Origin: Chloroflexota bacterium
GTDB taxonomy: Bacteria; Chloroflexota; UBA6077; FW602-bin22; JAMCVK01
NCBI GenBank assembly: GCA_023475225.1
Contig: JAMCVK010000044.1
Location: 1 to 40,280 of the forward strand
DNA length: 40,280 nucleotides
Direction of reading: 5' to 3'
Below the pieces are notes generated by a model that worked only from the letters and a program-made list of their open reading frames with translations, was not told the DNA's origin and searched no databases. This document shows, one piece after another, positions 799 through 24,088 of the stretch. The position numbers and the translations under genes are program-made. Position 1 is the first letter of the stretch. Each line of letters begins with the position of its first letter.

Positions 799-1284
799 TC
801 AGGGGGAACTTAGCCCACCCTCTACCTCCTCTACCTCTACCACCATCTCCACCTCCACCGCAATATCGCTCGGCAACTGATACATCCCTACCGCCGAACG
901 GGCATGCTTACCACTCTCACCAAAGAGGGAGACCAGCAGATCGGATGCGCCGTTGGCTACCTTCGGCTGCTCCGTAAACTCCTCAGCGCTGTTCACAAAC
1001 ACCAGCAGTTTCACAATACGTTTTACTTTATCTAAATCTCCCAGGGTAGCATTGATCGTACTCAGACAGTTCAGCGTCGTCAAACGCGCCGCCGCATAGC
1101 CCTCTTCAACAGTGAGATCTCTCCCCACCTTCCCCGTGTAAGCCGGCCGGCCACCCTTCGTCGGGCCATGGCCGGATACGAACAACAGGTTGCCACTGCG
1201 TACAGCGCCCACATAATTGGCCACGGGCACAACCGGTTTCGGCAAGGCCAAGCCCATCTTTTCAAGCTTATCGACAACCATCAT
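799..1284 (-). CDS. RidA/YjgF-family protein (enamine/imine deaminase-like), copy 1
   Basis: RidA proteins hydrolyse reactive enamine and imine intermediates released by PLP enzymes. This 161-residue protein belongs to the longer RidA subgroup whose N-terminal third reads PVANYVGAVRSGNLLFVSGHGP (about residues 19-41). Arg129 in the HARSAVG segment sits where the family's substrate-binding arginine is found. The Glu-rich tail is mildly unusual. The start overlaps the KDPG aldolase stop as ATGA and follows a perfect AAAGGAGG site, so the two are translationally coupled. It is the last gene of the leftward catabolic cluster, which contains a second RidA. Substrate is unknown. Confidence 0.85.
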   Translation of the reverse strand: MMVVDKLEKMGLALPKPVVPVANYVGAVRSGNLLFVSGHGPTKGGRPAYTGKVGRDLTVEEGYAAARLTTLNCLSTINATLGDLDKVKRIVKLLVFVNSAEEFTEQPKVANGASDLLVSLFGESGKHARSAVGMYQLPSDIAVEVEMVVEVEEVEGGLSSP

Positions 1285-1943
1285 TTTGAACCTCCTTTTC
1301 TCGCTTCCTGAACGGCCACAACGAAGGCACGGGCCCGTTCTGTGAGAAGCGCAAAATTACCCTCGGCTACGGTTCGCTTATCTACCAGATTGCCCCCTAC
1401 CGCCACGGCCACCGCCCCCGCTTTGATGAACTCACCGGCATTGTCCAGACTGACGCCTCCGGTAGGCAGGAGCCTCACTTGAGGCAAAGGGGCCAGAATA
1501 TCCCTCAAGTATTGTGGCCCCAGGGCTCCCGCCGGAAAGACCTTCACCAGGTCCGCTCCCAGCTCCCAGGCCGTGAGGATTTCCGTCGGTGTGAAGGCAC
1601 CTGGTATCACCGCTACCCCATAGCGATGGCTTAGGGACAGCAGCGCTGAGCTCAACGTCGGTGAGACGACAAAGCGAGCCCCAGCCAGGATAGCTGCTCG
1701 TGCCGTCTCCGCATCCAGCACTGTACCAGCCCCAAGTAGTACATCCTCCCCAAAAGCAGCCGTGCTCTCCTCTAACACCTTGAGCGCATTCGGGGTCGTC
1801 ATCGTAAACTCGATGATGCTGACCCCCCCTCTTTGTACTGCCTCCGCCACACGTAACAATTGCTGTGAATCGCTCAAGCGAACAACTGCGACAACCCCAC
1901 AGTCGATAATGCGTTGAATCTCTTCCTGTTTGCCCTTCATCAT
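1281..1943 (-). CDS. eda: 2-keto-3-deoxy-6-phosphogluconate (KDPG) aldolase
   Basis: This class I aldolase cleaves KDPG to pyruvate and glyceraldehyde 3-phosphate. In the 222-residue frame (counted from an upstream TTG at 1949) the Schiff-base lysine is in DLVKVFPA (about Lys136) and the general-base glutamate in IIEFTMTTP (about Glu47). The phosphate-binding LLPTGGV follows near 160. Length matches the Eda family. I prefer the ATG at 1943, eight bases after GAGGGG. It lies just downstream of the KDG kinase, so the pair completes the lower half of an Entner-Doudoroff-type route for the acid sugar made by the dehydratase at 4499-5689. Activity on the 2-keto-3-deoxy-6-phosphogalactonate epimer is possible. 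Confidence 0.92.
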   Translation of the reverse strand: MMKGKQEEIQRIIDCGVVAVVRLSDSQQLLRVAEAVQRGGVSIIEFTMTTPNALKVLEESTAAFGEDVLLGAGTVLDAETARAAILAGARFVVSPTLSSALLSLSHRYGVAVIPGAFTPTEILTAWELGADLVKVFPAGALGPQYLRDILAPLPQVRLLPTGGVSLDNAGEFIKAGAVAVAVGGNLVDKRTVAEGNFALLTERARAFVVAVQEARKGGSK

Positions 1944-1958
1944 TACCAAAACCCCTCT

Positions 1959-2999
1959 CTATCTCTGAATCTTCGTGACCACCGCCGCCGTTTGATGCTC
2001 CACTTCGGCCAGCGTCACCCAGCTGAAGTCGCCCGGTATGGAATGTTTGAGAACCGACATAGCATCGCCATAGGCCACAGCCTTGGCCACATCGCCAGTA
2101 AGATAGCCGTAGATAAAGCCAGCCGAATAGGCATCGCCAGAACCGATCCGATCCACCAACTCCAGTTCCGTGATTCTCCCCCGGTAAGTCCGATCGGCCA
2201 GGGCCAGGCTGGTCCAGCTGCCGCGCAACACTGTTGGAGCCTGTCTGATAGTAATGACTACGACCTTGAATCCGAACTGTTCCTTGATCTCCTGGGCCAT
2301 CATCTCTTCACTGCCGGAGAGCCCGAAGACCGTCTCCAGGTCATCACTGGTAGTCAGCAGAATGTCCACATAGCGAAATAGTTGCGAGAGCGTCTGGCGA
2401 GCCTCATCCTTCGTCCAGAGCCTGGCCCGGTAATTGAGGTCGAAGGTCGCCAGACAATGATTATCCTTTGCTGCGCTTAAAGCCGCCTCAGTGGCCTCAG
2501 CGCATGGTCGGCTCAGGGCTGGCGTTATGCCACTGGTGTGAAAAACCCTCGTCCCCTTCAACAGAGCGGGCCAGTCGATCTCCTCAGCCACCAGCCCAGC
2601 TATGGCCGAATGGGAGCGATCGTACAATACCTGGGAGGCCCTTGGCGAGGCTCCCATCTCGATGAAATATAAACCAACTCTTCCCTCCTTGGTCCACACC
2701 ACGTGAGAAACATCTACCCCATGCGTCATAGCTCGGCTGGCAATCATCCGACCAAGCTGATTGTCCACAAGCCGGGATACCCAAGCAGTCCGCAGCCCCA
2801 ATCGACTGAGCCCCACGGCCGCGTTGAGCTCCGATCCACCTACAGTTACCTCCAGACTGGTCGCCTGCTCCAGCCGCTGGAAGTTCAGTGGGGTAAACCT
2901 GATCATTGCTTCACCAAAACAAACGACGTCATACATCTGTTTATGCTGCGTCAGCGCGCAGACGTCCTCCTTTCGCAAAGAACCGCTCCTGACGACCAT
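1959..2999 (-). CDS. kdgK: PfkB-family sugar kinase, probable 2-keto-3-deoxygluconate kinase
   Basis: It phosphorylates KDG to KDPG, the substrate of the aldolase encoded next. PfkB features are clear: the N-terminal motif VGGSELNAA (about 53-61) and the C-terminal signature DRIGSGDAYSAGF with catalytic Asp289. The fold normally begins at MYDVVCFGEAM, Met22 of this frame (2936), giving 325 residues. The ATG at 2999 is three bases after the RidA stop and would be translationally coupled. An AAAGGAGG sequence inside the extra N-terminal stretch hints at yet another start (perhaps a CTG), so the true start is uncertain. The neighbouring aldolase makes KDG the best substrate guess, though other ketoacid sugars are possible. 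Confidence 0.88.
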   Translation of the reverse strand: MVVRSGSLRKEDVCALTQHKQMYDVVCFGEAMIRFTPLNFQRLEQATSLEVTVGGSELNAAVGLSRLGLRTAWVSRLVDNQLGRMIASRAMTHGVDVSHVVWTKEGRVGLYFIEMGASPRASQVLYDRSHSAIAGLVAEEIDWPALLKGTRVFHTSGITPALSRPCAEATEAALSAAKDNHCLATFDLNYRARLWTKDEARQTLSQLFRYVDILLTTSDDLETVFGLSGSEEMMAQEIKEQFGFKVVVITIRQAPTVLRGSWTSLALADRTYRGRITELELVDRIGSGDAYSAGFIYGYLTGDVAKAVAYGDAMSVLKHSIPGDFSWVTLAEVEHQTAAVVTKIQR

Positions 3000-3002
3000 C
3001 AG

Positions 3003-3392
3003 CTAGCACTCGTCAGGGATACAAGCGACGGCATCAACCTCTATGGGGAGTCCTCCCCCTAAAACTACCTGCACCGTCACCCTGGCTGGTGGATCGCCGC
3101 GGAAGTATTCCCGATACACCTCATTCCAGACAGGAAAATCGGCCATGTCCCGCAGGTAACAGGTCACCTTCAGTACGTTATCCATAGAAGTGCCGGCCGC
3201 TTCCAGGATCGCCTTGATGTTATCCAGGGTCTGCCTGACCATAGCCCGCATATCCCCGCTGATCAGATCGCCGCTCTCCGGATCGAGCGGTCCCTGACCA
3301 GCCGTAAAAACCAACTGTCCAAATCTGGTGGCCTGGGAGATCGGACTACGGGAGACAGGCGCTTTGTCGGTTCTTATAATTTCCCTTTTCAT
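3003..3392 (-). CDS. RidA/YjgF-family protein (enamine/imine deaminase-like), copy 2
   Basis: This is a compact, typical RidA of about 129 residues. The conserved segments TRFGQLVFTAGQGPLDP, NIKAILEAAG and PPARVTVQV are present. Counted from the upstream TTG, Arg105 falls where canonical RidA has its catalytic arginine, and Glu119 in GLPIEVDAVA is also conserved. It should deaminate 2-aminoacrylate-type enamines or imines. It lies between an Ldh-type oxidoreductase and the KDG kinase with almost no spacing. Its placement with PLP lyases in the same cluster suggests it handles an imine intermediate of the pathway. The ATG at 3392 is preferred to the TTG one codon earlier. Confidence 0.92.
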   Translation of the reverse strand: MKREIIRTDKAPVSRSPISQATRFGQLVFTAGQGPLDPESGDLISGDMRAMVRQTLDNIKAILEAAGTSMDNVLKVTCYLRDMADFPVWNEVYREYFRGDPPARVTVQVVLGGGLPIEVDAVACIPDEC

Positions 3393-3407
3393 CAAAGACT
3401 TCTTTTA

Positions 3408-4463
3408 CTACAACATCACACCCAGCTCGTTTCCCAACGAGCGTAGCTCTCGCAATATGTCTGCCGCTATCGGTATTCCATGGCGTAGCCTCTCGCCCCG
3501 GGTGCGCTCCTCAATCTCGCCGGGGATGAGCACTTCGGCCACGCCTTGGGCCGGCTTGATCGCCTTCAACTCCCGAATCAACTGATCCATACGTCCCTTG
3601 AATTCATCAACGGGCAAGAAGCTGCCCACCGGCAGGGCAGCGAAGAAGTGTCCGATGCCCTGGGGGCGAGTCAGGTTCTCGTATAATCCAGCGGTTTGCC
3701 GTCCGAAGCCCGCCCCTGTAAGCACAGCGGAGATGACCTCGAAAGTTAGGGCCAGGCCATAACCCTTCGCCCCTCCTACCGGGAGGAGCATACCCGCCAT
3801 GGCCGCAACGGGGTCAGTGGTGGGAGCACCGTGCGAATCCAGGGCCCAGCCCTCAGGGATCGGCTCGCCTCGTTGGGCGGCCAATCTGATCCGTGCTCGT
3901 GCTGACACGCTGGTAGCCATATCCAGGACTACCGGCCGTTCTTGACCAGCAGGGATGCCCACCGCCACCGGATTGGCCCCAAAATAGGGTTCAGCTCCAC
4001 CCCAGGGGGCCATCACGGCTGAACCATTAGTTGTCGCCACCCCAATCATGTCCTCCTGTACAGCCATCAGCACATAACGGGCGGCTGCCCCGAAATGGTT
4101 ACTATTTCTCACCCCAGCAGCAGCCGGTCCGTCAATCCGCTTCGCTTTGGCCAGGCATAGTTCCATCGCCCTGGTGCTTACCGCCTGGCCCAGCCCATTG
4201 CCCCCATCAATCAAGAGGATAGAGGTCGTCTCACGAATGACCTCTATCCTTGGCCTCGGTTCCATCAGGCCCAGACGCAGCCGGCGAACATAAATGGGCA
4301 GGAGCCTTATCCCATGGGTATCCACACCTCTCAGGTTCGCCTCTACGAGCGCTGTGGCCGCAACCACCGCATCATCACTGGGCAGCCCACACCTCTCCAG
4401 GACCTTGGCCGCAAACCCGTGCAGATCCTCTGCAGATAGCTTCTCCGGCATTTGCCCAATCAT
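3408..4463 (-). CDS. Ldh2/malate-L-lactate-type NAD(P)H oxidoreductase
   Basis: Family members (malate/L-lactate dehydrogenase, ureidoglycolate dehydrogenase AllD, 2,3-diketogulonate reductase, piperideine-2-carboxylate reductase) interconvert 2-oxo or imino acids and 2-hydroxy or amino acids. Family landmarks are DTHG with catalytic His (about residue 50), NSNHFGAA (about 120-127), and the glycine-rich GGAKGYGLALTFEV segment. The open frame extends to 4526, but the preceding gene ends at 4499 and a GGAGGAGG site about ten bases before the ATG at 4463 supports that start (351 residues, normal length). The substrate cannot be read from sequence. The ureidoglycolate lyase-like gene upstream makes an AllD-like role one option, reduction of a keto-acid another. 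Confidence 0.85.
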   Translation of the reverse strand: MIGQMPEKLSAEDLHGFAAKVLERCGLPSDDAVVAATALVEANLRGVDTHGIRLLPIYVRRLRLGLMEPRPRIEVIRETTSILLIDGGNGLGQAVSTRAMELCLAKAKRIDGPAAAGVRNSNHFGAAARYVLMAVQEDMIGVATTNGSAVMAPWGGAEPYFGANPVAVGIPAGQERPVVLDMATSVSARARIRLAAQRGEPIPEGWALDSHGAPTTDPVAAMAGMLLPVGGAKGYGLALTFEVISAVLTGAGFGRQTAGLYENLTRPQGIGHFFAALPVGSFLPVDEFKGRMDQLIRELKAIKPAQGVAEVLIPGEIEERTRGERLRHGIPIAADILRELRSLGNELGVML

Positions 4464-4498
4464 TGCTGACGACGCCTCCTCCATAGAAGTTGATCGCC

Positions 4499-5689
4499 TT
4501 ACCAGAGGGTACGACCGGGGACCCAATCTGGTCGCCTTGGGTCTTTGATCGCGGATAGTACACCTTCCCGAGTGTGCAGCTCGGCATAATACCGAAACTT
4601 ATCTTCATCGAGTTCCACCCCAAGTCCAGGGCCAGAAGGGACAGTCATACAGCCGTTCACGTAGTTTAACTTTCCTCCAACGATGATGTCATCCACCTGA
4701 TGATGGTAATGGGCGTCAATCGCATAGGCGATTTGGGGGGTCGAGGCGGCGATATGCAAGTAGGCAGCTGTGGAAATACCCAGTTCAACACCGCTGTGAA
4801 GTGATAACCCCAACTGGAATGTCCTACATACCGCCGCTAGTTGCTTCGTAGCCCATATTCCACCCCATTTATGAGGGTCACCCAGGATGATATCCACAGC
4901 ACTCAGGCGCACAGCCTGCGGTATCTGCTCGAAGTCCACAACGCACATATTAGTGGCTAGTGGTATGGGCAAATCGCGGCGCAGCCGAGCCATGCCCTCG
5001 ATTCCCGATGTTGGATCCTCCAGGTACTCTAGATCGTATTCCAGGAGTTGCTGGCCGATGCGTAGACTCGTTTGGGGTGACCACACACCGTTGGGGTCAA
5101 CCCTTATCTGCACACTCTTTCCAAAAGTCTCCCGCAGAGCCTTCACCGTGGCCACATCGTGCTCCGGGGGAAACACCCCTCCTTTCAACTTGAGAACACT
5201 GAAGCCATACCGCTTGATCAATTCCTGACAATAAGCGACTATCTCTTCTGGCGTAGTCTCTCCACCACCCTGATCGCCTGGATAGCGATAGAACACGTAG
5301 GCCGAAAAGGGGACCTGACTGCGATAGAGACCACCAATCAACTCGTAAAGCGACCTCCCAGTCGCCTTGCCCATGAGGTCCCATAGCGCCATCTCCAGGC
5401 CCCCGATGGCCGCCAACCCACCGTAGCCGGAGAAGTAGGGTGTCAACTGAAACCTGGATAAAATTTTCTCCAGATTGAAGGGGTTCTCCCCGATGATCTC
5501 CCTTCCAAGACGATCGCTGATAGTCCTGATCTCACCCCCACCCATCGTCTCCCCAAGCCCCACCAGTCCATCATCAGTCATAACCCGTATAATGTTACGA
5601 GTGATGCCCGTTCTGACCCCCCAGGCCCAACGGATAGGTGCTTCCAGCGGTATATTCACAGGGGTCACCACGACATTTCTAATGGTCAT
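4499..5689 (-). CDS. Enolase-superfamily acid sugar dehydratase, glucarate dehydratase-like
   Basis: Members dehydrate acid sugars to 2-keto-3-deoxy acids using Mg2+. The 396-residue protein aligns by motif with the glucarate dehydratase subgroup: TRNIIRVMTDDGLVGLGE, the K-x-K catalytic pair (Lys167/Lys169, VLKLKGG), DPNGVWS (Asp198), LEDP (Glu224), ATNMCVVDF (Asn247), GDPHKWGG (Asp271) and the general-acid/base His298 in SLHSGVELGIS. Glucarate dehydratase proper has HSNNHFDIS at the last site, so the specificity may differ. The product would feed the KDG kinase and KDPG aldolase downstream if the substrate is a hexonate. It starts two bases after the DUF4392 stop. Confidence 0.88.
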   Translation of the reverse strand: MTIRNVVVTPVNIPLEAPIRWAWGVRTGITRNIIRVMTDDGLVGLGETMGGGEIRTISDRLGREIIGENPFNLEKILSRFQLTPYFSGYGGLAAIGGLEMALWDLMGKATGRSLYELIGGLYRSQVPFSAYVFYRYPGDQGGGETTPEEIVAYCQELIKRYGFSVLKLKGGVFPPEHDVATVKALRETFGKSVQIRVDPNGVWSPQTSLRIGQQLLEYDLEYLEDPTSGIEGMARLRRDLPIPLATNMCVVDFEQIPQAVRLSAVDIILGDPHKWGGIWATKQLAAVCRTFQLGLSLHSGVELGISTAAYLHIAASTPQIAYAIDAHYHHQVDDIIVGGKLNYVNGCMTVPSGPGLGVELDEDKFRYYAELHTREGVLSAIKDPRRPDWVPGRTLW

Positions 5690-5691
5690 TT

Positions 5692-6702
5692 CTACTTTTC
5701 CTCCACCGATCTCAGGGCATGTTCGACTTCTTTAAGGCCATTACGAACGATCTGGGCCAGCATCGTGAGGAGGGCAGCATGGATCTCAAACGGCTGGCCG
5801 TCAGCCATCATTATCTGACTCGTGTAGATGCCATCCCCAGCGCCGGCCCGCACACAATCCTCCAGGATTCGCCTCTCCATATCCGCAGAATGCAAGAGCT
5901 CAGGGGTCTCCAGGAGAAAGGCTAACATCGCCTCCACCCCATAGGCCCCCCAATTAGAGATGGCGGCCACGACTAGTGCATCCGTAACCGTGGTACTGGC
6001 AATGGCTGGGCCGTTCGGATGGACCTCCTCAACAACCTCGACGAACTGCCCGAAACCTATCTCGTTTCCACCATCGCCTATCCCCAGGGTGAAGATACCC
6101 CGCCTTCGCGCCTGATCGAAGAAGAGATCGATCCGAGGCTCGTCCACCACCTCCTTACCCGTCATGTAGTGCATTGTACCCCTGGCTGTTACCCCTTTTA
6201 CTTCAATGGATACCATGGCCGCAGGGCGATAGGTATCAAGGAAACTTGCAGCCCGTTCTAAGGTATCATCAGGATTCTCCACCGGTATGGGTACCATCAC
6301 CCCTGCGTGGCGTCGCTGCTTCGCCATTCGGTAATCCATCATCGTTATCCCGGCCGTCTGCACTGCAGCATTGATGGGTTCAGCATAAGCCTCAGCGCAG
6401 AGGAAAATGGGTGTGGCCCCCAGACCGAGGTCGATGGCTCGCGCCAGTGCAGCTGCACCAAGCGGGCCATCCGTCTCCCCCTTCGGTAGCCAGATTGGCG
6501 CGCCGGCCCCTGTGGCGATGACGATGTTGTCTTCCTCGTGGACGTGACTCAGTAATCCTCGTGCCGCCAGGAGTGTAAGAGGCATCCCAGCCTTGACTCG
6601 GACCCCTTCGTACAGCCGGTGGATCACACCCCTTGGCACCCCTCGGGTGCGCATCTCGATAGTGATGAGGCGGTCGATGTACTCACCTACCACTTCTGGC
6701 AT
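5692..6702 (-). CDS. DUF4392 family protein (D-glutamate cyclase-like), copy 1
   Basis: The family matches the C-terminal domain of animal D-glutamate cyclase, which turns D-glutamate into 5-oxo-D-proline. Bacterial stand-alone members are largely uncharacterised. Diagnostic segments are ATGAGAPIWLPKGETDGPLGA (about 63-83, split here by a family insert), the core GIGDGGNEIGFG (207-218), and AISNWGAYGVEA (248-258). Unlike the second copy (13406-14446), it has lost the Cys-rich KCQCPCGG segment that precedes the last motif. It starts inside the 3' end of the ureidoglycolate lyase-like gene (20-base overlap) behind GGGAGGG, so the two are coupled. The substrate is unknown, and D-glutamate is only one candidate. 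Confidence 0.82.
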   Translation of the reverse strand: MPEVVGEYIDRLITIEMRTRGVPRGVIHRLYEGVRVKAGMPLTLLAARGLLSHVHEEDNIVIATGAGAPIWLPKGETDGPLGAAALARAIDLGLGATPIFLCAEAYAEPINAAVQTAGITMMDYRMAKQRRHAGVMVPIPVENPDDTLERAASFLDTYRPAAMVSIEVKGVTARGTMHYMTGKEVVDEPRIDLFFDQARRRGIFTLGIGDGGNEIGFGQFVEVVEEVHPNGPAIASTTVTDALVVAAISNWGAYGVEAMLAFLLETPELLHSADMERRILEDCVRAGAGDGIYTSQIMMADGQPFEIHAALLTMLAQIVRNGLKEVEHALRSVEEK

Positions 6703-7234
6703 CTAGCCCTCCCCATTCTAACAAAACTATTTCGAAGCTGATGTTCCACCTCTCTAGCAAGTTGACCATGTGCATATCATCGTACATCGTGTGTTCCCGC
6801 AGAATCATCACGAAATCGGCCGACGGTGCCAGAGGGAAGATGAGATGATGCCACGTCCCTCTGGCCAGGTTGATCCCCACACTCCCATCCAGGAGGAAGG
6901 CCGTGACCTCCTCGGGATTGGGACCGACCTCCAGGTCGCTGATGTCACCGGCAGGGGCCAAGGCGATGATGCTTGGCTGTCCCCGCAACGGTATGAAGGC
7001 TTGCGATGCTTGTAGGTGTCGCTCCATCTGATGAAACCTTAATTCTCGAAAATGCACAGTTAAGAATCCAATCTGGGTCGCCTTGTTCAGCATCTCCAAC
7101 CGTACCACGTGATCCCAGTATTTGTTGACTGGGCTTTCAATATCAGGAGGCCGTAAAGGAGGCCCAATGACCTCCCCGAATGGCCCGAAGGCCTCTTCTG
7201 TCAGCGGCCTGGCCTGAATCCTCTTCACTTCCAT
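6683..7234 (-). CDS. Ureidoglycolate lyase-family protein (AllA-like)
   Basis: AllA releases urea from ureidoglycolate to give glyoxylate. This 183-residue cupin-like protein shows the N-terminal FGPFGEVI (about 17-23), the middle ERHLQASQAFIPL (about 71-83) and the characteristic GTWHHLIFPL (126-135) with two histidines. Length is typical. No allantoinase, allantoate hydrolase or uricase is nearby, which argues against a plain allantoin pathway and for a related C-N substrate. It sits 49 bases after the importer permease and overlaps the DUF4392 gene. Confidence 0.82.
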   Translation of the reverse strand: MEVKRIQARPLTEEAFGPFGEVIGPPLRPPDIESPVNKYWDHVVRLEMLNKATQIGFLTVHFRELRFHQMERHLQASQAFIPLRGQPSIIALAPAGDISDLEVGPNPEEVTAFLLDGSVGINLARGTWHHLIFPLAPSADFVMILREHTMYDDMHMVNLLERWNISFEIVLLEWGGLDARSGR

Positions 7235-8186: not shown

Positions 8187-8192
8187 GGCACT

Positions 8193-10887: not shown

Positions 10888-10999
10888 TCTTGTTTTCCTC
10901 CTTTGTTTCCTAGGCGACCTAACCATCACGGAGCAAACAATTTACGACACAGCCTATGTGCACTGCCCGCAACCTATAGCTGCTCACCTCCCTCCTCGC

Positions 11000-13363: not shown

Positions 13364-13405
13364 CAAAAAATCCTCCTGAGAGAATACTCTATCTATGATT
13401 CAACC

Positions 13406-15611: not shown

Positions 15612-15613
15612 GT

Positions 15614-17680
15614 CTATCCTCCCGTACTTTCTAAAGCCTGGCCGATGATCTTGCCCTCTGATTGGGCTGGAGCCGGTATGCCCAAAAGATGGGTGATGGT
15701 CGGGGTCACATCCACCGTCCAGGGCGGCACCGGCAGCCGATGTCCCTTCCTTATCCCTGGCCCAGCCATCACCAGGACCGCCCGCACCGAGCAGCCCCAC
15801 AGATCAGCGTTCGGTAGATACTCGCCGTGTAGCCCCTGCACATGACCAAATATTCTGGTTTTGATGCCCTCGGGCCCGACCGCATAGAAACAGGTTGTAG
15901 TGGAGAGCATAGCCTCCGTTGGCTCCAGATTGGGCAGGGTGGGTTCCCCCGCATAACCAGGCCGGAAGTAATACACGACGTCCCCAACTGTATCACCCCA
16001 CTGCCCTAAAGTAGACGCCTCCTCCCGGCGTAAAGCCAGGGCCACCGGACACTCCCCTGTCTCTGGATCCACCAGCGCATAAAGCGCCCGAATGATCGCT
16101 CGACGTACCTGCTCATACTCCTCCCCGGGCTCCACGCAGCCATACCTCTCCCGTCCCTTCAGATTGACCCAGACGTTTAGAGCCAGGGGCTGCACGCTCG
16201 CTAGAGGCTGATCAGCCAGGACAGCCTTGGTCCTCTCCCAATCCACCACCAGTTGGCCATTCTCCCTCTTGTAAACCAGCAGCCCGGCATCGAGGAAGGC
16301 CCTCCCCAGCCATACCGTCTTGAACGTCGGTATGGCCGCATGGTCGGAGAGCACTATCACGAGTGTCTCCCCATCAGCACAGCCTCCGACTATCTCCCCT
16401 ACCGCCTTATCCAGCGCTCCATACTCCTGACGAAACCGCTCCCAGGCCTCTTTAGCCCTTCGCGGGTCGTAGCCCTTCCACTGGGGACAAACCTCGTTTA
16501 AAGCCTTATGGTTGAGTCCGTCAGGGGCGTGAATCTGCACAAAGAGAAGATCCCAGGGGTACTTGTTGGCTAGATAACGGGTCATTGCCGCTATCCCTAT
16601 GCATTGGTCAGAGATCGACTCATAGACCTGGCAAAGGGGACTGACCTTATGTCTGAGGCCGCTGCCCCGCCCAGCAGCCACCTTCTCCTCAAACTCCAGC
16701 ATGTGGTCGATGAGCTCATCGGCTATCTCTGGGGGATAGGTCCAGCCCTGCGTATTGTAAATGGGCGTGCGGTACAGCACGACCTCCCGCCCATCAGGGG
16801 ACAGTCGCTCCAGTTTGACCCTGAACTTGCCCCGTACCGGCCCATAGGGCGTCTGAAAGTCGTCGCAAAGCCAGTCGCTCCACTCCCCAGGCCGTAGTCG
16901 GGCGAGGGGCCGCTGGGCATCCCTATCCTTAGTCAGGAGCATCAAGTCATAGCCAGGGTGGCCCGAACCTGTGATTAACAGGTAATAGACCAATCCTCGC
17001 TTGGATTCGAAATTGGCCAACTCCCCACCAAGCCTCCACTCGCCATCCTCGGAGACCCGCAAGCCAACCTCACCGGAGATGACCAGAGCACTCTCCCGTG
17101 GCAGCGGGGATGACTGAACCAAGCCAGACCAACCCTTCGCCTCCGTGAAGATGAGGGGGATATACTCGCCCGAGATAGCACCGTCCTTGCTGGCGTAACG
17201 GCTGGGATAGGTCAGGCGGGAAAGAGGCGAGGAGTAAGGGCCGGAGCCATCGACCACGATGCCCTTCTTGATGTTCGGTGGCCAGCCCCCGGGATAGTTG
17301 ACCAGGATGCACCTCTTCCCCACCCGTTCGGCCGCCTGCCAGATGTACTCAGCCCGCGATAACTGGTTCAGGTTCTCTTTGGAGATATTGGCAAAGCGAG
17401 GGAAGATGTTCGAGCGCACCCAGTGTACCTGGTCGAAGGGTTCGCCAGGGAAATGGATGCCGAAGGAGTTAAGCCCATGTGTGCCCGTCCAGGCCCCCGT
17501 GGCCAGACTGGTCCAGTTGGTCGGTGTATCCACAGGTGGCGAGGAGTACATCGGCGAGTAGACCCCCTCAGCCATCAAACGGCCGATGGCCGGCATGTTC
17601 CCCTCAGCCACGAACTTCTCCGCCATCTCTGGCATCAACCCATCCAGACCGATCAGGATGACCCGCTTCACTTTCTCCAC
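15614..17680 (-). CDS. Alkaline phosphatase-superfamily phosphoesterase (type I phosphodiesterase-like), copy 2
   Basis: This 688-residue protein has GLDGLMPEM (metal-binding Asp13), DTPTNWTSLATG (nucleophile Thr57), QIHAPDGLNH, LSDHAAIP and a late GLHGEYLPNA. It has no signal peptide. The GTG start at 17680 is ten bases after AAGGAGG. It duplicates 11276-13363: N-terminal and catalytic segments are very close even at DNA level, but residues about 165-250 (an insert in the cap region) differ strongly, so the copies may have different substrates. It is tightly linked to the threonine synthase-like gene upstream and the PLP lyase downstream. Confidence 0.88.
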   Translation of the reverse strand: MEKVKRVILIGLDGLMPEMAEKFVAEGNMPAIGRLMAEGVYSPMYSSPPVDTPTNWTSLATGAWTGTHGLNSFGIHFPGEPFDQVHWVRSNIFPRFANISKENLNQLSRAEYIWQAAERVGKRCILVNYPGGWPPNIKKGIVVDGSGPYSSPLSRLTYPSRYASKDGAISGEYIPLIFTEAKGWSGLVQSSPLPRESALVISGEVGLRVSEDGEWRLGGELANFESKRGLVYYLLITGSGHPGYDLMLLTKDRDAQRPLARLRPGEWSDWLCDDFQTPYGPVRGKFRVKLERLSPDGREVVLYRTPIYNTQGWTYPPEIADELIDHMLEFEEKVAAGRGSGLRHKVSPLCQVYESISDQCIGIAAMTRYLANKYPWDLLFVQIHAPDGLNHKALNEVCPQWKGYDPRRAKEAWERFRQEYGALDKAVGEIVGGCADGETLVIVLSDHAAIPTFKTVWLGRAFLDAGLLVYKRENGQLVVDWERTKAVLADQPLASVQPLALNVWVNLKGRERYGCVEPGEEYEQVRRAIIRALYALVDPETGECPVALALRREEASTLGQWGDTVGDVVYYFRPGYAGEPTLPNLEPTEAMLSTTTCFYAVGPEGIKTRIFGHVQGLHGEYLPNADLWGCSVRAVLVMAGPGIRKGHRLPVPPWTVDVTPTITHLLGIPAPAQSEGKIIGQALESTGG

Positions 17681-17703
17681 AGAACCATATCCTCCTTATT
17701 TGG

Positions 17704-18966
17704 CTATCTCGTCGGACCGATCTCGCCCCATACTCGGCGCGCCATGGTCATAAACTGGTCTAAATCGCAGTTGATGACCGGTGGTGGCGAGAACATGGAG
17801 AGGGATGCCTCCGGCTGCTTGAGTCCAGAGGCGGTGACCACGCAGACCACCCGCTCCTCCCGCTGCACATCGCCCCTCTCGACCATCTTCTTCAGAGCGG
17901 CCACACTGCTGGCCGCCGCTGGTTCAGCGAAAATCCCTTCCTGCCCCAGCCAGGCTATCGCCTCCAGCATCTCCTCATCCGATACCGCTTCGGCGCTCCC
18001 ACCCGATTCATATATGGCTCTTAAGGCTCTTTTGCCTCCCCCCAGAGGAGCATCAGCGGCGATGCTCTGGGCGATGGTCTTCCGGTTATCCCCAGCTGGT
18101 GCGGCCACCTGCCGTCCTTCCCTATAGGCTATGACGATGGCCGGGGTGGCCTCAGGCTGCACCCCTACCATCTTAGGTAGGCTAGCAATAAGCCCAAGCC
18201 TCCTCAGTTCGTTGAACCCCTTCCAGTCGCCAAAAAGCCCCCCACCGGTGCCCACCGGGTGAATCACCCAGTCTGGCACAGACCAGTTGAGCGCCTCACA
18301 GATCTCATAGGCATAGGTCTTCATCCCCTCATGCCGGAAGGGGTTGATGAAGTTGGTGAATTGATAGAGATTGAGCTCCGTATTCACCCTTCTTAAGAGC
18401 TCGGTCACTTCAGCGAAGGTCTGAAAGCGTACTTTAATTACCTGGTGGCCGTAGACCAGGATCATAGCTAGCTTCTCATCGGTCGTCCACTCATTCACCA
18501 GGATGAGTGCCTGCATGCCCGCCTTGGCTGCATAGGCGGCGAAGGAGCCACCGGCGTTCCCACTGGTGTAGGTGAGGGCCTGTTTTATCCCCATCTCCAC
18601 CGCTTTGCTTACGGCAATCGAGAAGGACCGATCCTTAAGGGAGGCCGTGGGGCCAATAGTGTCATCTTTAACATATACCTCTGGCAGTCCCAATTTGGCC
18701 CCGATCTTCTGGCAACGATGCAGCGGGGTTCCGCCCTCACCCAGGGACACCATATGGCGCTCATCCTTAAGGGGAAGCAATTCTCGCCAGCGCCAGATAG
18801 AACGGCCGCGCCGTTGCACATCCCTCAGCTCAAGGCGCGAACGGATAGCCTCGTAGTCGTAGACGGCGTCAAGGAAGCCACCACACTTGGGGCAGGCATT
18901 AACGGGCTCAAGGTCCGAGTAAGTAGCTTGGCAATCATCACAAACTAGTCCAAGAATACAGCCCAT
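17704..18966 (-). CDS. Threonine synthase-like PLP enzyme
   Basis: Threonine synthase converts O-phosphohomoserine to threonine. Relatives with the same fold perform other beta- or gamma-eliminations and replacements. The 420-residue protein has a four-cysteine N-terminal zinc-ribbon (Cys9, Cys12, Cys25, Cys28), the PLP lysine Lys111 in ASLKDRSF, TSGNAGGSFAAYAAKAG (134-150) and a phosphate-binding GTGGGLFGD. Length and zinc ribbon match bacterial/archaeal threonine synthases. Its place inside a catabolic importer cluster, without thrA or thrB, makes a specialised role on a phosphorylated or amino-sugar-derived substrate possible. The start has GAGGTGA before the ATG at 18966. Confidence 0.8.
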   Translation of the reverse strand: MGCILGLVCDDCQATYSDLEPVNACPKCGGFLDAVYDYEAIRSRLELRDVQRRGRSIWRWRELLPLKDERHMVSLGEGGTPLHRCQKIGAKLGLPEVYVKDDTIGPTASLKDRSFSIAVSKAVEMGIKQALTYTSGNAGGSFAAYAAKAGMQALILVNEWTTDEKLAMILVYGHQVIKVRFQTFAEVTELLRRVNTELNLYQFTNFINPFRHEGMKTYAYEICEALNWSVPDWVIHPVGTGGGLFGDWKGFNELRRLGLIASLPKMVGVQPEATPAIVIAYREGRQVAAPAGDNRKTIAQSIAADAPLGGGKRALRAIYESGGSAEAVSDEEMLEAIAWLGQEGIFAEPAAASSVAALKKMVERGDVQREERVVCVVTASGLKQPEASLSMFSPPPVINCDLDQFMTMARRVWGEIGPTR

Positions 18967-18970
18967 TGGG

Positions 18971-19912
18971 TCACCTCGCTAAATGTCTTAATCTGGGATC
19001 GGTGATATCGCGCAGCCCGTCGCCCAATAGGTTGAAGCCGAGCACTAGCAGGGCGATGGCGATACCGGGAAAGGCTACCAGGTGCGGGGCGATGCTCACA
19101 TAGGTGCGCCCTCGACTCAGCATAGACCCCCATTCAGGCTCCGGGGGTTGCACGCCCAATCCCAGGAAGCTAAGAGCCGCCGCGATAAGGATGGCTGAGC
19201 CGATCCCCAACGATGTCTGCACAATTATCGGTGCTGTACAATTGGGCAGCAGATGGGCCAGGAGAAGCCTGGCATCCGAGGCACCGATGGTTCTGGCGGC
19301 CAGGACGAAATCGAAGTTCTTGACCGTGAGCACTACCGACCGGGTGAGCCGGGCGAAGCCGGGGATGGCCGTGAGCCCAACAGCGATGATGACGTTCGTC
19401 GCCCCCATGCCCAGTGCGCTGACGATGGCTATGGCCAGAACAATGGTCGGTATGGTGAGGAGAACCTCTACAGCCCGCATGATCAAAATATCCAGACGAC
19501 CGCCATAATAGCCAGCCAGCAATCCGGCCGCTACCCCAATCATCATACCGATGCTCGTAGCACTTAGGCCGATAAGAAGCGAAACGCGTGAGCCGAATAT
19601 TATGCGGCTGAGGATGTCACGTCCCACATCATCCATGCCTAGGGGATGAGCGAAGGAGGGGGGCTGTAAACGATAGGCCAGATTCGTTTCCAGGGGCGGG
19701 TATGGAGCGATCCAGGGAGCTGAGACGGCCATAAACACGAACAGCAGGGTAATAATCGTCCCCAGGGCGGCTAGCCGACTCCCCATAAGGAGTCTGCCAA
19801 GAGCCAGGCACGGATCGCCAAGGCGACGCCACAGGTGACCAAGCCATCTCCTAAGGAATAGCCCACTGACCCCCACTGGGATCACGGCCTGGTCATCACG
19901 TCCTTTAATCAT
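18971..19912 (-). CDS. Dpp/Opp-type ABC importer permease (DppC family), importer 2
   Basis: This is a DppC-class permease with the same architecture as importer 1: HPLGMDDVGRDILSRIIFGSRVSLL, AARTIGASDARLLLAHLLPN in the cytoplasmic loop, and LGLGVQPPEPEWGSML near the end. The frame is open to 19996, but the part beyond 19912 overlaps the DppB gene and reads as low-quality Cys/Ser-rich sequence. The ATG at 19912 (MIKGRDD), overlapping the DppB stop by eight bases, is the sensible start (313 residues). No ATPase gene follows; the next gene is the threonine synthase-like enzyme. Confidence 0.92.
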   Translation of the reverse strand: MIKGRDDQAVIPVGVSGLFLRRWLGHLWRRLGDPCLALGRLLMGSRLAALGTIITLLFVFMAVSAPWIAPYPPLETNLAYRLQPPSFAHPLGMDDVGRDILSRIIFGSRVSLLIGLSATSIGMMIGVAAGLLAGYYGGRLDILIMRAVEVLLTIPTIVLAIAIVSALGMGATNVIIAVGLTAIPGFARLTRSVVLTVKNFDFVLAARTIGASDARLLLAHLLPNCTAPIIVQTSLGIGSAILIAAALSFLGLGVQPPEPEWGSMLSRGRTYVSIAPHLVAFPGIAIALLVLGFNLLGDGLRDITDPRLRHLAR

Positions 19913-20825
19913 AGCGCACCCTAGGGTCCAGATACGAATAGGCGATGTCGATGATGAGGTTGAGCAGCAAGAAGACCATCGCATAAAGCAGCACAACCCC
20001 CTGGACCATGGTGTAATCGCGCATGCGCACTGAGTCTATCATCAGGAGCCCGATCCCTGGCCAGGCGAAGACTGTCTCCACAATGATGGAGCCCCCCAGG
20101 AGATAGCCAAACTGGAGACCGGCTATAGTGAGCGTGGGAATGAGGGCATTCCTGAGCGCATGACGTAGGAGGACAACCCTTTCCCTGAGCCCCTTGGAAC
20201 GGGCGGTCCGAATGTAGTCCTGCCCCAGCACCTCCAGCATGCTGGATCTGGTGAGACGAGCGAGGACAGCCATCTGATGAGCAGAAAGGGTGATGGCCGG
20301 CAGCACCAGCTGGGCCAGGGTGCCGCGCCCTGTAGCCGGTAAGAGATTTATCTGGACAGCCAAAACCATCATTAGCATAAGTCCCAACCAGAAGGCGGGG
20401 ATGCACACACCGGCGATGGCTCCGAGCATGCTCACCTGGTCATACACTGAGCCGCGCTTAACGGCCGAGACCACGCCAGCACTCAGACCAACCAGCAGGG
20501 CGATGCTCATCGCAGCCACCGTCAGCTCGATGGTAGCCGGAAAGCGGAGTAACAGTTGATCCAGAACTCCATACCTGAATACCTTAGATATGCCAAGGTC
20601 ACCGTGCAGAAGCCCCCAGAGGTAGTAAGCATATTGGATATAGATGGGCTTATCCAGCCCCATTTCCCGGCGGATAGATTCCACTACGTCCCGGGAGGCC
20701 ATCTCCCCAGCGATGAGCTGGGCCGGATCACCCGGCACAAGTCGGAAGATGACAAAGATCAGTGTCACTACGACGAGAGCGGTTGGGAATATTAACAGCA
20801 GTCTGCGCAGGATATAGGCCGTCAT
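19905..20825 (-). CDS. Dpp/Opp-type ABC importer permease (DppB family), importer 2
   Basis: This DppB-class permease of 306 residues begins MTAYILRRLLLIFPTALVV. It shows LVPGDPAQLIAGE, YIRTARSKGL with ALRNALIPTL, and VFAWPGIGLLMIDSV. The open frame continues to 21011 through repeat material that reads as Pro/Gly-rich junk. The ATG at 20825, with AGGTGA just upstream, is the real start. Homology with the importer 1 permease is clear but the two are not near-identical, so duplication is old or the systems were assembled separately. Confidence 0.92.
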   Translation of the reverse strand: MTAYILRRLLLIFPTALVVVTLIFVIFRLVPGDPAQLIAGEMASRDVVESIRREMGLDKPIYIQYAYYLWGLLHGDLGISKVFRYGVLDQLLLRFPATIELTVAAMSIALLVGLSAGVVSAVKRGSVYDQVSMLGAIAGVCIPAFWLGLMLMMVLAVQINLLPATGRGTLAQLVLPAITLSAHQMAVLARLTRSSMLEVLGQDYIRTARSKGLRERVVLLRHALRNALIPTLTIAGLQFGYLLGGSIIVETVFAWPGIGLLMIDSVRMRDYTMVQGVVLLYAMVFLLLNLIIDIAYSYLDPRVRYD

Positions 20826-21225: not shown

Positions 21226-22953
21226 CTAGCGTTTGTAGGCATCGCGCAGAATGGTGAATATGGTTGGCCAGATTACGACCCCCTCCACATTCTTGCGCGC
21301 GCCCACCAGCAGGTCCACGGCATAGAGATAAATCAGTGGCGCATCCGCAGCGATCAGCTCCTGAACCTTGCCATAGTACTCCGCCCGCTTGGCCGGATCG
21401 ATATTGGTTTCGCCCAGATCGATCAGCCTATCCACCTCGGGGTTACTGTACCACATCAGGTTCCAGGCAAGAGGAGCCTTCTCCTTGGTTGGGTTAGAGT
21501 AGAAGATCTGACGCAGATGCTGATTTATCTCTCCAGTAGAGGGGTTGAAACCGAAAAGCAACATCTCATACTTCGCTTCGGCCGGTGGGAGCCTGAGATA
21601 GCCCCAGCGCGCCGCCGCTTCCACCTTCCAGATAGTGGCATCCACCCCAATCTTCTTAAAGCCCGCCTGTGCCGTCTCCACCACCTGAATATCCTTGGGA
21701 TACTCACCCTCCGAGGTGTTGATGGTGAACTTCAGCGGCTGCCCATCCTTCTCCAAAATGCCCGTGGGCCCCGGCTTCCACCCTGCCTCGGCCAGCAACC
21801 GCTTGGCCCTCTCCAGATCGTACTCGTATTTTTGGGCACTCTTATAGCCCTTGATGGCGGGTGCCGCCGGCGAGTCCAGCACCGTCGCATACCCCAGGAA
21901 CAGGTTCTTGACCATGCTCTTCTTATCAACAGCGTAGGCCAGGGCCTGCCTCACCTTGGGATCGTCGAAGGGCTTCTTCAACAGATTCATCTCCAGCCAA
22001 AAGGTACGTAGCCCCTTCTGGCGGATGACCCTGGTGTTGGCCCCCTTCTCTAGTCGAGCCGCCTCCTCCGCCGGGATGTCGTTGGCCAGGTCCGCCTCCC
22101 CCGTCTCCAGCATGGCCACCCGAGCGCCAGGCTCCAGCACCGGCTTCATAACGATCTTATCCAGGGCCGCTTTCCCCTTGAAGTAATCATCGTTCCTGAC
22201 CAGCACAACCTGTACACCAGGGGTGAACTCCTGGAGCTTGTAAGGCCCGGTGCCCACCGGGCGGGCCGTAAACTCCTTCCCCAACTTCTGGACAGCGGTG
22301 GGGCTGGTTATCCCTCCTGAGCCATGGGCCAGGTAATTCAACATCGGACCGAATGGTTTCTCTGTGCCGAGCTTGATCGTATGGTCATCCACGATCTGGA
22401 TCCGCTTGATGTGTAACCAAAGGGTCCGGTTGGGTGTGACAACCTTCGGGTCCAGGATCCGCTCTATATGGAACTTCACCGCCTCAGCGTTAAAAGGTGT
22501 GCCATCGTGGAACTTCACGTTCTTGCGCAGGTAGAAAGTCCAGGTGAGCTGATCGGGTGAGACCTCCCACCTTTCAGCCAGTCCCGGCACGATGTTGAGC
22601 TGCTCATCGAAGGTGACCAGGTTATCATAGAGCAGGAATACCGCCTCGTAGCTGGCTGGATAGGTTTGGGGATTAATCGAGTCTAACTCCTTAATGGGCA
22701 TGTTCTGGGCGTAAACGAGCGTCCCACCGATGGGCTTGGCTGGTGTGGGGGTCGGTGGCTTGACGGCCACTGGGGTTGGGGTCGGTGGGACGACAGCAGT
22801 CGGGGTGGGGGCAGCCGGGGCGGGTGCACAGGCAGCAAGAAGGGCGGCGATGCTTGAGGCCGAAAGCCCCAGGGCCGTAGCCCGCATGATGAACTCCCTG
22901 CGGCTTACCCTCCTTGTGACCAGTTCAGCGAGCAATCGATCGAACTCACTCAT
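21226..22953 (-). CDS. ABC importer substrate-binding lipoprotein (SBP family 5), Tat-type, importer 2
   Basis: This is an extracellular ligand-binding lipoprotein for importer 2. The N terminus has a twin-arginine motif SRREFI (Arg18-Arg19), a hydrophobic stretch and the lipobox LLAAC (Cys42), implying Tat export followed by lipidation. A Pro/Thr-rich spacer of about 35 residues (TPTP-type repeats) links it to the family-5 fold, recognisable by LAERWEVSPDQLTWTFYLR and KFHDGTPFNAEAVKFH. Total length is 575. The importer 1 protein uses a Sec-type signal without such a linker. The start has AAAGGAGA upstream of the ATG at 22953. No consensus promoter was visible in the gap before it. Confidence 0.93.
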   Translation of the reverse strand: MSEFDRLLAELVTRRVSRREFIMRATALGLSASSIAALLAACAPAPAAPTPTAVVPPTPTPVAVKPPTPTPAKPIGGTLVYAQNMPIKELDSINPQTYPASYEAVFLLYDNLVTFDEQLNIVPGLAERWEVSPDQLTWTFYLRKNVKFHDGTPFNAEAVKFHIERILDPKVVTPNRTLWLHIKRIQIVDDHTIKLGTEKPFGPMLNYLAHGSGGITSPTAVQKLGKEFTARPVGTGPYKLQEFTPGVQVVLVRNDDYFKGKAALDKIVMKPVLEPGARVAMLETGEADLANDIPAEEAARLEKGANTRVIRQKGLRTFWLEMNLLKKPFDDPKVRQALAYAVDKKSMVKNLFLGYATVLDSPAAPAIKGYKSAQKYEYDLERAKRLLAEAGWKPGPTGILEKDGQPLKFTINTSEGEYPKDIQVVETAQAGFKKIGVDATIWKVEAAARWGYLRLPPAEAKYEMLLFGFNPSTGEINQHLRQIFYSNPTKEKAPLAWNLMWYSNPEVDRLIDLGETNIDPAKRAEYYGKVQELIAADAPLIYLYAVDLLVGARKNVEGVVIWPTIFTILRDAYKR

Positions 22954-23284
22954 CTTCTTCTCTCCTTTGATTGGCTAACAACCGAACACCATCAACAAAC
23001 AACAGCTCCTTTCCAATGCAACCTGAACTCTATCTCACCTCCTTAACCTTTCTATAACTGAGCCCTAGAACCCTCCCAGAAGGGGTGTCCCCCTTCTGGA
23101 CTACCCCCAAACTCCGGCGGGAGAAGGGGGGAATAAATTTGGAGATACCCAAACCCCAGCAGAAGGACTTCGCCCCTCTGCATCCCTCTAATCTGCGGGA
23201 GAGGGGGGAGGAGGCTAGGGCAGAGCCCCGGAACTCTCCCAGAAGAGAAGGCATCTGAACGCAACCAATCCTCCTTGACCCCCC
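22954..23284 (-). repeat. Gene-free gap upstream of importer 2 with GC-rich repeat copies
   Basis: It holds the palindromic module at 23074-23107 (arms 23076-23085 and 23090-23099), a second piece near 23190-23230 with GCGGGAGAGGGGGGAGG and CTAGGGCAGAGCCCCGGAAC, and an isolated perfect Shine-Dalgarno string TTAAGGAGGTGA (minus strand, 23034-23045) that has no start codon at usable distance. The promoter of importer 2 should lie here or transcription may come from iclR, but I see no good -35/-10 pair. Confidence 0.55.
23074..23107. repeat. Palindromic repeat module, copy 2
   Basis: This is the second copy of the module at 20975-21008: arms 23076-23085 and 23090-23099 around TGTC, followed by ACTACCCCCA. 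It is preceded by AGCCCTAGAACC, which also occurs at 40000-40010. Confidence 0.65.
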
Positions 23285-24088
23285 TTAGTGCCGAAAGCCC
23301 AGCTCCCTGGATATCTGGGCCACAGTCTCCTTCACGGCCTGCCCAAACCTGGCGATCCTCTCCTCAGTCATCCGCTGCTCCGGCGCTGATATGCTGACCG
23401 CGGCCACAACGACGCCAGAATGATCGAAGACCGGCGCTCCCACACACCAGATGCCCTCCTCGTTTTCCAGGCGATCTATGGCATAACCTCTCTGCCGCAC
23501 AGCCTCCAACTCTTTCCAGAGAACATCGGCTGAGGTGATAGTATTGGGAGTACGTGGGGTGAGACCTTTTGCGACGACACGATCGACCATTTCCTTGGAA
23601 GAGTAGGCCAGGATGGCCTTCCCGCAGGCTGTGCAGTAGACAGGCATACGATTGCCCACGGCCGAATGCATGCGTACGAGCTGAGGGCTGTCTACTTTGT
23701 CTATGTAGACGATCTCGTCCTGGTCGAGCACAGTGAGATGCACCGTCTCTGAGGTCCTCCCCATCAGGTCGACGAGGAAGGGTCGGGCTTTGGCTCTTAA
23801 CTCTAAACCGTTTAACAGGGCCGTGGCCAGCCGTAACACCTTGAACCCAAGGCGATAGCGCTCCGTTTGTGCATCTTGCTGGACGTATCCCTGGGAACGC
23901 AGGGCCTGGAGAAGACGATGCACCGTGCTCTTGTGCCATCCCAGCCGCTGGCTGATCTCAGTCAGCCCCAACCCAGAGGTAGTATCACCCTCCACAAGGA
24001 TGTCCAGAACCCTTAACCCCTTTTCGAGGGTCTGCGCCCCGCGTCTATTGCCTGCCACAACGCTCGGAGATCGCCTATTTTGTTCCAT
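23285..24088 (-). CDS. IclR-family transcriptional regulator
   Basis: This DNA-binding regulator has an N-terminal winged helix-turn-helix (about residues 18-80, LTEISQRLGWHKSTVHRLLQAL) and a C-terminal IclR ligand domain including AVGNRMPVYCTACGKAILAYSS and AVSISAPEQRM. The start at 24088 (267 residues) is chosen because the promoter -10 lies at 24120-24125, so the frame's extension to 24148 cannot be translated from that transcript. IclR regulators typically control sugar-acid and aromatic catabolism; this one stands at the head of the catabolic cluster and next to a divergent ROK kinase gene. An inverted repeat over its transcription start suggests autorepression. Confidence 0.9.
   Translation of the reverse strand: MEQNRRSPSVVAGNRRGAQTLEKGLRVLDILVEGDTTSGLGLTEISQRLGWHKSTVHRLLQALRSQGYVQQDAQTERYRLGFKVLRLATALLNGLELRAKARPFLVDLMGRTSETVHLTVLDQDEIVYIDKVDSPQLVRMHSAVGNRMPVYCTACGKAILAYSSKEMVDRVVAKGLTPRTPNTITSADVLWKELEAVRQRGYAIDRLENEEGIWCVGAPVFDHSGVVVAAVSISAPEQRMTEERIARFGQAVKETVAQISRELGFRH

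Follow-up and report, generated by a model that had tools for sequence, protein, structure and literature searches.

Gene content and organization of the locus

The stretch of DNA analysed here, referred to as the window, comprises 40,280 nucleotides (positions 1 to 40,280 of contig JAMCVK010000044.1, C44 of genome G000) from a Chloroflexota bacterium whose 2.74-Mb draft genome is held on 50 contigs and is 96.9% complete. Twenty genes, all on the minus strand, lie in contiguous open frames spanning positions 799-24148, and we propose below that this run may serve the catabolism of amino-sugar acids. Based on Pfam and NCBIfam profile searches of the window proteins, the order of transcription is an IclR regulator, a solute-binding protein (SBP1) with the permeases DppB1 and DppC1, a threonine-synthase-like enzyme, a phosphoesterase (PDE1), a CuyA-like pyridoxal phosphate (PLP) lyase and DUF4392a, followed by PDE2, SBP2, DppB2, DppC2, an AllA-like cupin, DUF4392b, a GlucD-subgroup dehydratase, an Ldh2 oxidoreductase, RidA1, a 2-keto-3-deoxygluconate (KDG) kinase-like enzyme, a 2-keto-3-deoxy-6-phosphogluconate (KDPG) aldolase and RidA2 (Table 1). 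The genes from SBP1 to DUF4392a are referred to as half 1, and those from SBP2 to RidA2 as half 2.

The gene families named in a preliminary description of this locus were all recovered as Pfam or NCBIfam matches. It had also pictured a leftward run with short gaps or overlaps behind an IclR regulator; the strand and the upstream position of the IclR gene were confirmed and at 14 of the 19 gene junctions the genes overlap or lie no more than 49 bp apart, but five gaps are wider (IclR-SBP1, 331 bp; SBP1-DppB1, 400 bp; lyase-DUF4392a, 121 bp; PDE2-SBP2, 349 bp; SBP2-DppB2, 178 bp). Likewise, the two Dpp-type importers have their solute-binding proteins and permeases, but ATPase genes are absent from both. 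The nearest NCBIfam models of the IclR gene are BhcR and KdgR, each matched under its cut-off. A search across the run gave no convincing internal terminator, and a T-tailed hairpin follows the run at 271-246 (-).

DUF4392, at present Pfam PF14336 ("D-glutamate cyclase-like, C-terminal"), is represented in the whole genome by two genes, both of them in the run (214 and 216 bits for DUF4392a and DUF4392b, cut-off 27.9), and the KDPG aldolase family PF01081 by a single gene, which is also in the run. Since the only PF14336 genes and the sole PF01081 gene of the genome all share 14 kb, the combination is far beyond chance; nor is it a background feature, as PF14336 was present in just 34 of 301 sampled genomes of the phylum.

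Table 1. Features of the gene run, in order of transcription
Feature	Position	Strand	Basis of assignment
IclR-family regulator, first gene of run	23285..24148	-	PF01614 198 bits, PF09339
SBP1, family-5 solute-binding protein, importer 1	21226..22953	-	module-specific SBP clade
DppB1 permease	19905..20825 (start refined; open frame begins 21011)	-	PF00528/PF19300; 57% in G209
DppC1 permease	18971..19912 (start refined; open frame begins 19996)	-	PF00528; 60% in G209
Threonine-synthase-like PLP enzyme	17704..18966	-	NF006050 320 bits > 303; nearest PDB 2zsj
PDE1, alkaline-phosphatase-superfamily phosphoesterase	15614..17680	-	PF01663
CuyA/D-cysteine-desulfhydrase-like fold-type II PLP lyase	14568..15620 (start near 15617)	-	NF052482, nearest PDB 7ysk
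DUF4392a (PF14336), core of conserved module	13406..14446	-	53-58% to L059, L067, L068, L077, L086
PDE2, paralogue of PDE1	11276..13366	-	64% to PDE1 overall; first ~150 amino acids 91%
RraA-family gene remnant, in 349-bp PDE2-SBP2 gap	11000..11179	-	25/53 identical to Runella RraA
SBP2, family-5 solute-binding protein, importer 2	9298..10929	-	closest to SBP1 within genome
DppB2 permease	8193..9119	-	51% to DppB1
DppC2 permease	7284..8186	-	54% to DppC1
AllA/ureidoglycolate-lyase-like cupin, divergent	6683..7234	-	PF04115 87 bits; PDB 2bdr/1xsq ~55 bits
DUF4392b (PF14336)	5692..6702	-	216 bits; groups with L045
Enolase-superfamily GlucD-subgroup sugar-acid dehydratase	4499..5689	-	PDB 2oqh/4dye 349 bits, 3vdg 294 bits
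Ldh2-family oxidoreductase	3408..4484 (open frame begins 4526)	-	PF02615 406 bits
RidA1	3003..3392	-	TIGR00004 119.5 bits > 106
PfkB-family KDG-kinase-like enzyme	1959..2999	-	PDB 2afb (KDG kinase) 230 bits
KDPG/KHG-type aldolase	1281..1943 (open frame begins 1949)	-	TIGR01182 184 bits > 156
RidA2 (PF14588 type), last gene of run	799..1284	-	profile match

A cross-phylum module of importer, lyase and DUF4392

GTDB species genomes were scanned with ten DUF4392 proteins, which gave 80 loci from many phyla onto which the window proteins were mapped. DUF4392a, the lyase, SBP1, DppB and DppC were found together in L059 (a metagenome-assembled genome, MAG) and in L086 (Clostridia), at 41-58% identity. 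DUF4392a, the lyase and an SBP1 cut by the contig end were found in L068 (Armatimonadota), the DUF4392a-lyase pair in L077 (Bacillota) and the DUF4392a-SBP1 pair in L067. Furthermore, in G209, a genome of the window's own class, SBP1, DppB1, DppC1 and the lyase were present at 57-68% identity up to the contig end. Half 1, taken as SBP1-DppB-DppC-lyase-DUF4392, is a cross-phylum module, in which the PDE and threonine-synthase-like genes are local insertions, as they are absent from the other module loci; the threonine-synthase-like gene was not found in the maps of L059, L060, L068 and L172.

The start of the CuyA-like lyase, near 15617, overlaps the end of PDE1. Like members of the CuyA/D-cysteine desulfhydrase/1-aminocyclopropane-1-carboxylate deaminase family, the lyase keeps the PLP lysine and the motifs GGNK, QSN and DPVY, but it has NH(A/G)xxF and SxxKG in place of the motifs of ordinary desulfhydrase-like paralogues. 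Both replacement motifs are common to the module members, and the enzyme is predicted to be an amino-acid ammonia-lyase. The two solute-binding proteins of the run are about 45-48% identical, the other full-length SBP_bac_5 proteins of the genome reaching at most 39% to SBP2. In trees of these proteins SBP1 forms one clade (support 98/96) with those of loci carrying the CuyA-type lyase and of loci carrying a DgaE-type lyase (L172, L059, L067, L086, L101, L089, L060 and L180), and SBP2 joins this clade with support of 94/91 and 98/97 in the two tree builds.

Replacement of the lyase in DgaE-type loci

The same importer clade and DUF4392 were found with a DgaE-family lyase in L060 (Paenibacillus thalictri), L180 (another Paenibacillales genome), L089 (Actinocatenispora comari) and L101 (a Bacillota MAG), and never with both lyases. 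The DgaE-family match scored 361 bits in L060 and 373 bits in L180 (cut-off 385). The best PDB match of the L060 lyase is the D-glucosaminate-6-phosphate ammonia-lyase of Salmonella (7lc0), in which a role of His-163 has been described (PMC9529869), and the SHH motif is kept. Directly downstream in L060, L180 and L089 are a DgaF-family KDPG aldolase (PF07071) and an FGGY kinase, and L101 has DgaE with FGGY. The sole PF07071 gene of the Actinocatenispora genome is the one in the DgaE-type operon, and in the order around L060 PF14336 was found in 2 of 201 genomes, in both within the DgaE-type operon. Both lyase families, the CuyA/D-cysteine-desulfhydrase type and DgaE, use D-amino acids as substrates, a class to which D-glucosaminate belongs. 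Two alternative PLP lyases in one importer clade may reflect the displacement of one lyase by another over the same substrate class.

It had been suggested in the preliminary description that a PLP lyase, RidA and the kinase-aldolase branch degrade a nitrogen-bearing sugar acid. Because the importer clade of the module swaps to a DgaE lyase accompanied by DgaF aldolase and FGGY kinase, this suggestion is supported for half 1 at the level of substrate class; the support does not extend to the two halves as an established unit. D-glucosaminate breakdown through DgaE in the window itself was rejected, as the run holds no SelA-like gene and its lyase is of the PALP fold-type II rather than the SelA-like kind expected of a DgaE-type enzyme.

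The predicted sugar-acid branch

The KxK, D, E, N, D and H motif positions of the dehydratase align with those of solved relatives, which places it in the GlucD subgroup of the enolase superfamily. The enzyme, earlier labelled "glucarate dehydratase-like", is not a glucarate dehydratase (171 bits against the equivalog TIGR03247, cut-off 829). The KDG-kinase-like enzyme scored 300 bits against the KDG/KDGal kinase model NF041332, under the cut-off of 440. RidA2 is 41-48% identical to the RidA proteins encoded beside DgaE-family lyases in rhizobial and roseobacterial SBP_bac_5 operons, namely the plasmid operons L190 (Phyllobacterium), L191 (Rhizobium) and L193 (Sagittula), and those of Phyllobacterium and Sagittula also have an IclR gene. 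In nine proteobacterial loci a RidA2-type gene neighbours DUF4392, and seven of the nine have the PALP-lyase cluster in common. A link of half 2 to half 1 is suggested by the place of SBP2 in the same clade and by the lyase-associated type of RidA2; the sole KDPG aldolase of the genome is also in the run.

Proposed pathway and alternatives

Judging from families and neighbourhoods, we give about even chances to the run being a unit for the breakdown of 2-amino-2-deoxy sugar acids of the D configuration (D-glucosaminate, a stereoisomer or an N-acyl derivative) with an attached aldonate branch, via KDG and KDPG. The two sister Dpp-type importers would take up the amino-sugar acids, and DUF4392, a dinuclear-metal enzyme, might prepare or release the free amino acid, perhaps through hydrolysis of an N-acyl or lactam (or lactone) bond. 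The CuyA-like PLP lyase would eliminate the 3-hydroxyl group and RidA would hydrolyse the resulting enamine/imine to ammonia and KDG. The enzymes of the KDG kinase and aldolase families present in the run would then convert KDG to KDPG and KDPG to pyruvate and glyceraldehyde-3-phosphate, and the GlucD-subgroup dehydratase would add to this KDG pool from aldonates that carry no amino group.

In G304, G306, G307 and G309, which have DUF4392a-lyase or DUF4392a-SBP1, the KDG-kinase homologues reach 228-265 bits, against 98-128 bits for those of the four genomes of the DgaE type, a contrast to be read without a background rate of KDG kinase presence; in G303, which has the CuyA-type lyase, the homologue scores 120 bits and an FGGY-like gene follows the importer. 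A lyase acting before phosphorylation (KDG kinase) or after it (FGGY) would fit this contrast. The limit on the contrast is one of several points that weigh against the proposed unit. The CuyA-like lyase scores 317 bits against the CuyA equivalog NF052482, under the cut-off of 450, and the DgaE and DgaF homologues also fall under their equivalog cut-offs (311/600 and 228/300 bits). In L163 (G056, a genome without DUF4392) dihydroxyacetone-kinase-like DhaK/DhaL genes neighbour a homologue of the lyase (61%) that keeps the module motif. Homologues of the window dehydratase (43-47%) sit with a short-chain dehydrogenase/reductase, SMP-30 lactonase, epimerase and RraA and not with DUF4392, which are plain aldonate contexts. 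Homologues of the dehydratase, aldolase and kinase stand together in G307, and in G309 the dehydratase, KDPG aldolase, KDG kinase, SBP and DppBC make up a separate operon, DUF4392a-SBP1 being on another contig. The joining of an acid-sugar half to a C-N half, on which the preliminary description was built, was not seen again: in the 80 loci, the 301 phylum genomes and the inspected plasmid matches, halves 1 and 2 were contiguous in no other genome. Given this lack of contiguity in the genomes searched, and with counterparts of its sugar genes in an operon of their own in the module-bearing G309, half 2 may be a plain aldonate operon adjoining half 1.

The run could, then, be two independent operons lying side by side, half 1 for D-amino(-sugar) acid degradation and half 2 a plain aldonate pathway with its own importer, their adjacency being recent or only regulatory. 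We hold this to be possible, if somewhat unlikely. Besides the contiguity search, the separate G309 operon and the plain sugar contexts of the dehydratase homologues, the 349-bp gap with its RraA remnant at the start of half 2 favours it; on the other hand, DUF4392b and two RidA genes, one of them of the lyase-associated type, belong to half 2, the SBP clade of half 1 has SBP2 as its sister, a single IclR gene lies upstream of a run in which no internal terminator was found, and L060, L180 and L089 combine this importer clade with a KDPG-type aldolase.

Degradation of ordinary D-amino acids or lactams (D-glutamate/5-oxo-D-proline, D-cysteate) seems improbable. The DUF4392 proteins would here be D-glutamate cyclases, as reported for the mouse protein (PMC5339696), and the CuyA-like enzyme a D-amino-acid desulfhydrase or sulfo-lyase. 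DUF4392 is indeed found near DUF1445 (PF07286) in proteobacteria, CuyA is the closest named family of the lyase, and sulfolactate dehydrogenase is closest to Ldh2 (nearest PDB 2x06, 261 bits). Nevertheless, this explanation leaves the KDG kinase and KDPG aldolase, and the co-occurrence of DgaE and DgaF, unaccounted for, the lyase stays under the CuyA cut-off and its pocket motifs are altered, and no 5-oxoprolinase (PxpA/B/C) gene was seen in the run. A sulfonate pathway built on CuyA and sulfolactate dehydrogenase was rejected, since neither reaches its equivalog cut-off and further sulfonate genes were not seen.

A ureide-type pathway, in which the AllA-like cupin (a PF04115 match) and the AllD-like Ldh2 (238 bits) act on a ureido/carbinolamide derivative of a sugar acid, is very unlikely, as the cupin scores 82 bits against the AllA cut-off of 230 and so falls outside AllA, and lies outside every recurring neighbourhood found, Ldh2 is nearer to sulfolactate dehydrogenase, no allantoin gene is in the window gene list and the run has no allantoinase or allantoicase. 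The best relative of the cupin in the phylum sample is at 35%. It is just as hard to credit that the halves were joined by an assembly artefact through the repeated PDE2, which stands at the junction and has several close paralogues (contigs C9, C18 and C46 end inside PDE copies), for exact matches run to no more than 104 bp between the window and the compared PDE-bearing contigs and to 38 bp between PDE1 and PDE2, which is short for a misjoin, and SBP1 and SBP2 are sister proteins.

A possible role for DUF4392

The metal ligands E59, D61, E115, D157, E161 and D246 of TON_0340 correspond to E76, D78, E167, D210, E214 and D301 of DUF4392b; these six acidic residues are invariant in an alignment of ten sequences and are kept in both DUF4392a and DUF4392b. 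For TON_0340 a weak Mn2+ phosphatase activity was described (PMC5132392), and for the mouse protein the cyclase activity mentioned above. The window proteins share the ligands with both, but their context is one of amino-sugar-acid lyases and importers, which neither reported activity explains.

An EF_0837/PRK09237-type amidohydrolase/deacetylase accompanies the DgaE-family lyases in operons of Phyllobacterium, Sagittula and Klebsiella, and DUF4392 was not seen in those that were inspected. In L060, L180, L089, L101 and the window DUF4392 is present and this amidohydrolase/deacetylase is not; the Rhizobium operon L191 has neither. Because the two replace each other across operons, we tentatively suggest, as an idea more likely wrong than right, that DUF4392 might be a dinuclear-manganese amidohydrolase (N-deacylase/lactamase) for D-configured N-acyl amino acids, freeing amino-sugar acids for the PLP ammonia-lyase. 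The mammalian D-glutamate/5-oxo-D-proline activity would then be one instance of this bond chemistry, and the window would encode a new version of amino-sugar-acid catabolism with ABC (ATP-binding cassette) import, KDG kinase and a non-orthologous lyase. On a Sinorhizobium plasmid (L149) two DUF4392 genes were seen to flank a "selenocysteine synthase" PLP gene and an amino-acid ABC importer.

Phosphoesterases and other features of the window

Residues D14, T53, D401, H405, D460, H461 and H625 of PDE2 are invariant across 11 paralogues and homologues, in line with the alkaline-phosphatase superfamily; we take them to be the metal-ligand and nucleophile pattern of alkaline phosphatases and nucleotide pyrophosphatases/phosphodiesterases. 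The family is represented by 17 matches in the window genome, and G073, a relative of the same order, has about 35 copies; copies are attached to many ABC-importer operons (L136-L141 among them) with nucleoside hydrolase/phosphorylase, sugar importer, fatty-acid-type and N-acetylglucosamine/anhydro-N-acetylmuramic acid-like genes. As the paralogues are scattered over unrelated operons, the PDE genes are no guide to the substrate, which led us to reject the inference of a phosphodiester or phosphonate substrate. Identity among close copies is patchy along the gene (72-91% over the first 160 residues, 48-96% over the remainder), suggesting recombination between copies. In L140 the operon of a second threonine-synthase-like PLP gene (40%) lies between two PDE fragments; it also contains xanthine-dehydrogenase-like, amidohydrolase and dihydroorotate-dehydrogenase-like genes and resembles an anaerobic purine-degradation cluster.

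The RraA remnant matched Runella RraA with 43.5 bits, where 50 shuffles reached at most 20 bits, and its annotated tblastn matches are of the RraA family; a Pfam scan of 11000-11179 gave no match, the likeness having come from direct comparison. RraA also accompanies aldonate dehydratases in L144 and L145. A palindromic repeat, CCAGAAGGGGNGTCCCCCTTCTGG, occurs at 20974-21037 and 23052-23139, in the SBP1-DppB1 and IclR-SBP1 gaps, and the beginning of L136, which lies on another contig, shows a similar sequence. Just left of RidA2 there is a perfect sigma-70-type promoter at 489-461 (-), with the T-tailed hairpin about 190 nucleotides further, and the two are possibly a candidate small RNA; an Rfam scan returned four tRNAs only, with no match in 1-800, including this region. 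Elsewhere in the window a ROK-family kinase gene (24388-25353, +) is divergent from the IclR gene, and a RACo-type corrinoid-activation protein adjoins a DUF1638 protein (32499-35099, -).

Relation to known routes and significance

The closest parallel is the Salmonella dgaABCDEF system (PMC9529869), in which an amino-aldonate yields ammonia and KDPG and then pyruvate and glyceraldehyde-3-phosphate; DgaE and DgaF homologues hold the equivalent place in L060, L180 and L089, and the KDG kinase and KDPG aldolase families of the window could likewise carry a lyase product to these end products. In Salmonella, however, uptake and phosphorylation are by the phosphotransferase system and not by an ABC importer, and in place of DgaE/DgaF the window encodes a fold-type II lyase, a KDG kinase and a PF01081 aldolase, in addition to DUF4392 and RidA. 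The "system III" cassette of Bacillus cereus (GntP, GntR, KDG kinase, amidohydrolase, aldolase and PLP enzyme), predicted to act on D-glucosaminate (PMC4896439), shares with the window the PLP enzyme, KDG kinase, aldolase and predicted substrate class, but its permease is of the GntP type, against the Dpp importers of the window, and it has an amidohydrolase in place of DUF4392. Like the window, the Phyllobacterium and Sagittula plasmid operons combine IclR, an SBP_bac_5 importer, a PF14588-type RidA and a PLP ammonia-lyase family; they differ in having the EF_0837/PRK09237-type amidohydrolase in place of DUF4392, and their solute-binding proteins are 24-25% identical to SBP1 and SBP2. A natronoarchaeal glucosaminate route has also been predicted (PMC12343721). 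No ABC-import, DUF4392-linked version was found in the literature on DUF4392 and the published glucosaminate routes.

Amino-sugar acids are plausible products of the oxidation of chitin and peptidoglycan, and few routes for them are described in the literature consulted, namely that of Salmonella and the predictions for B. cereus and natronoarchaea. If the proposal is true, the importer-DUF4392-lyase module of several phyla would be a second, widespread solution for a named substrate class, and a defined pathway would be gained for DUF4392, a metal-enzyme family that archaea, bacteria and humans all have and for which two conflicting activities have been reported.

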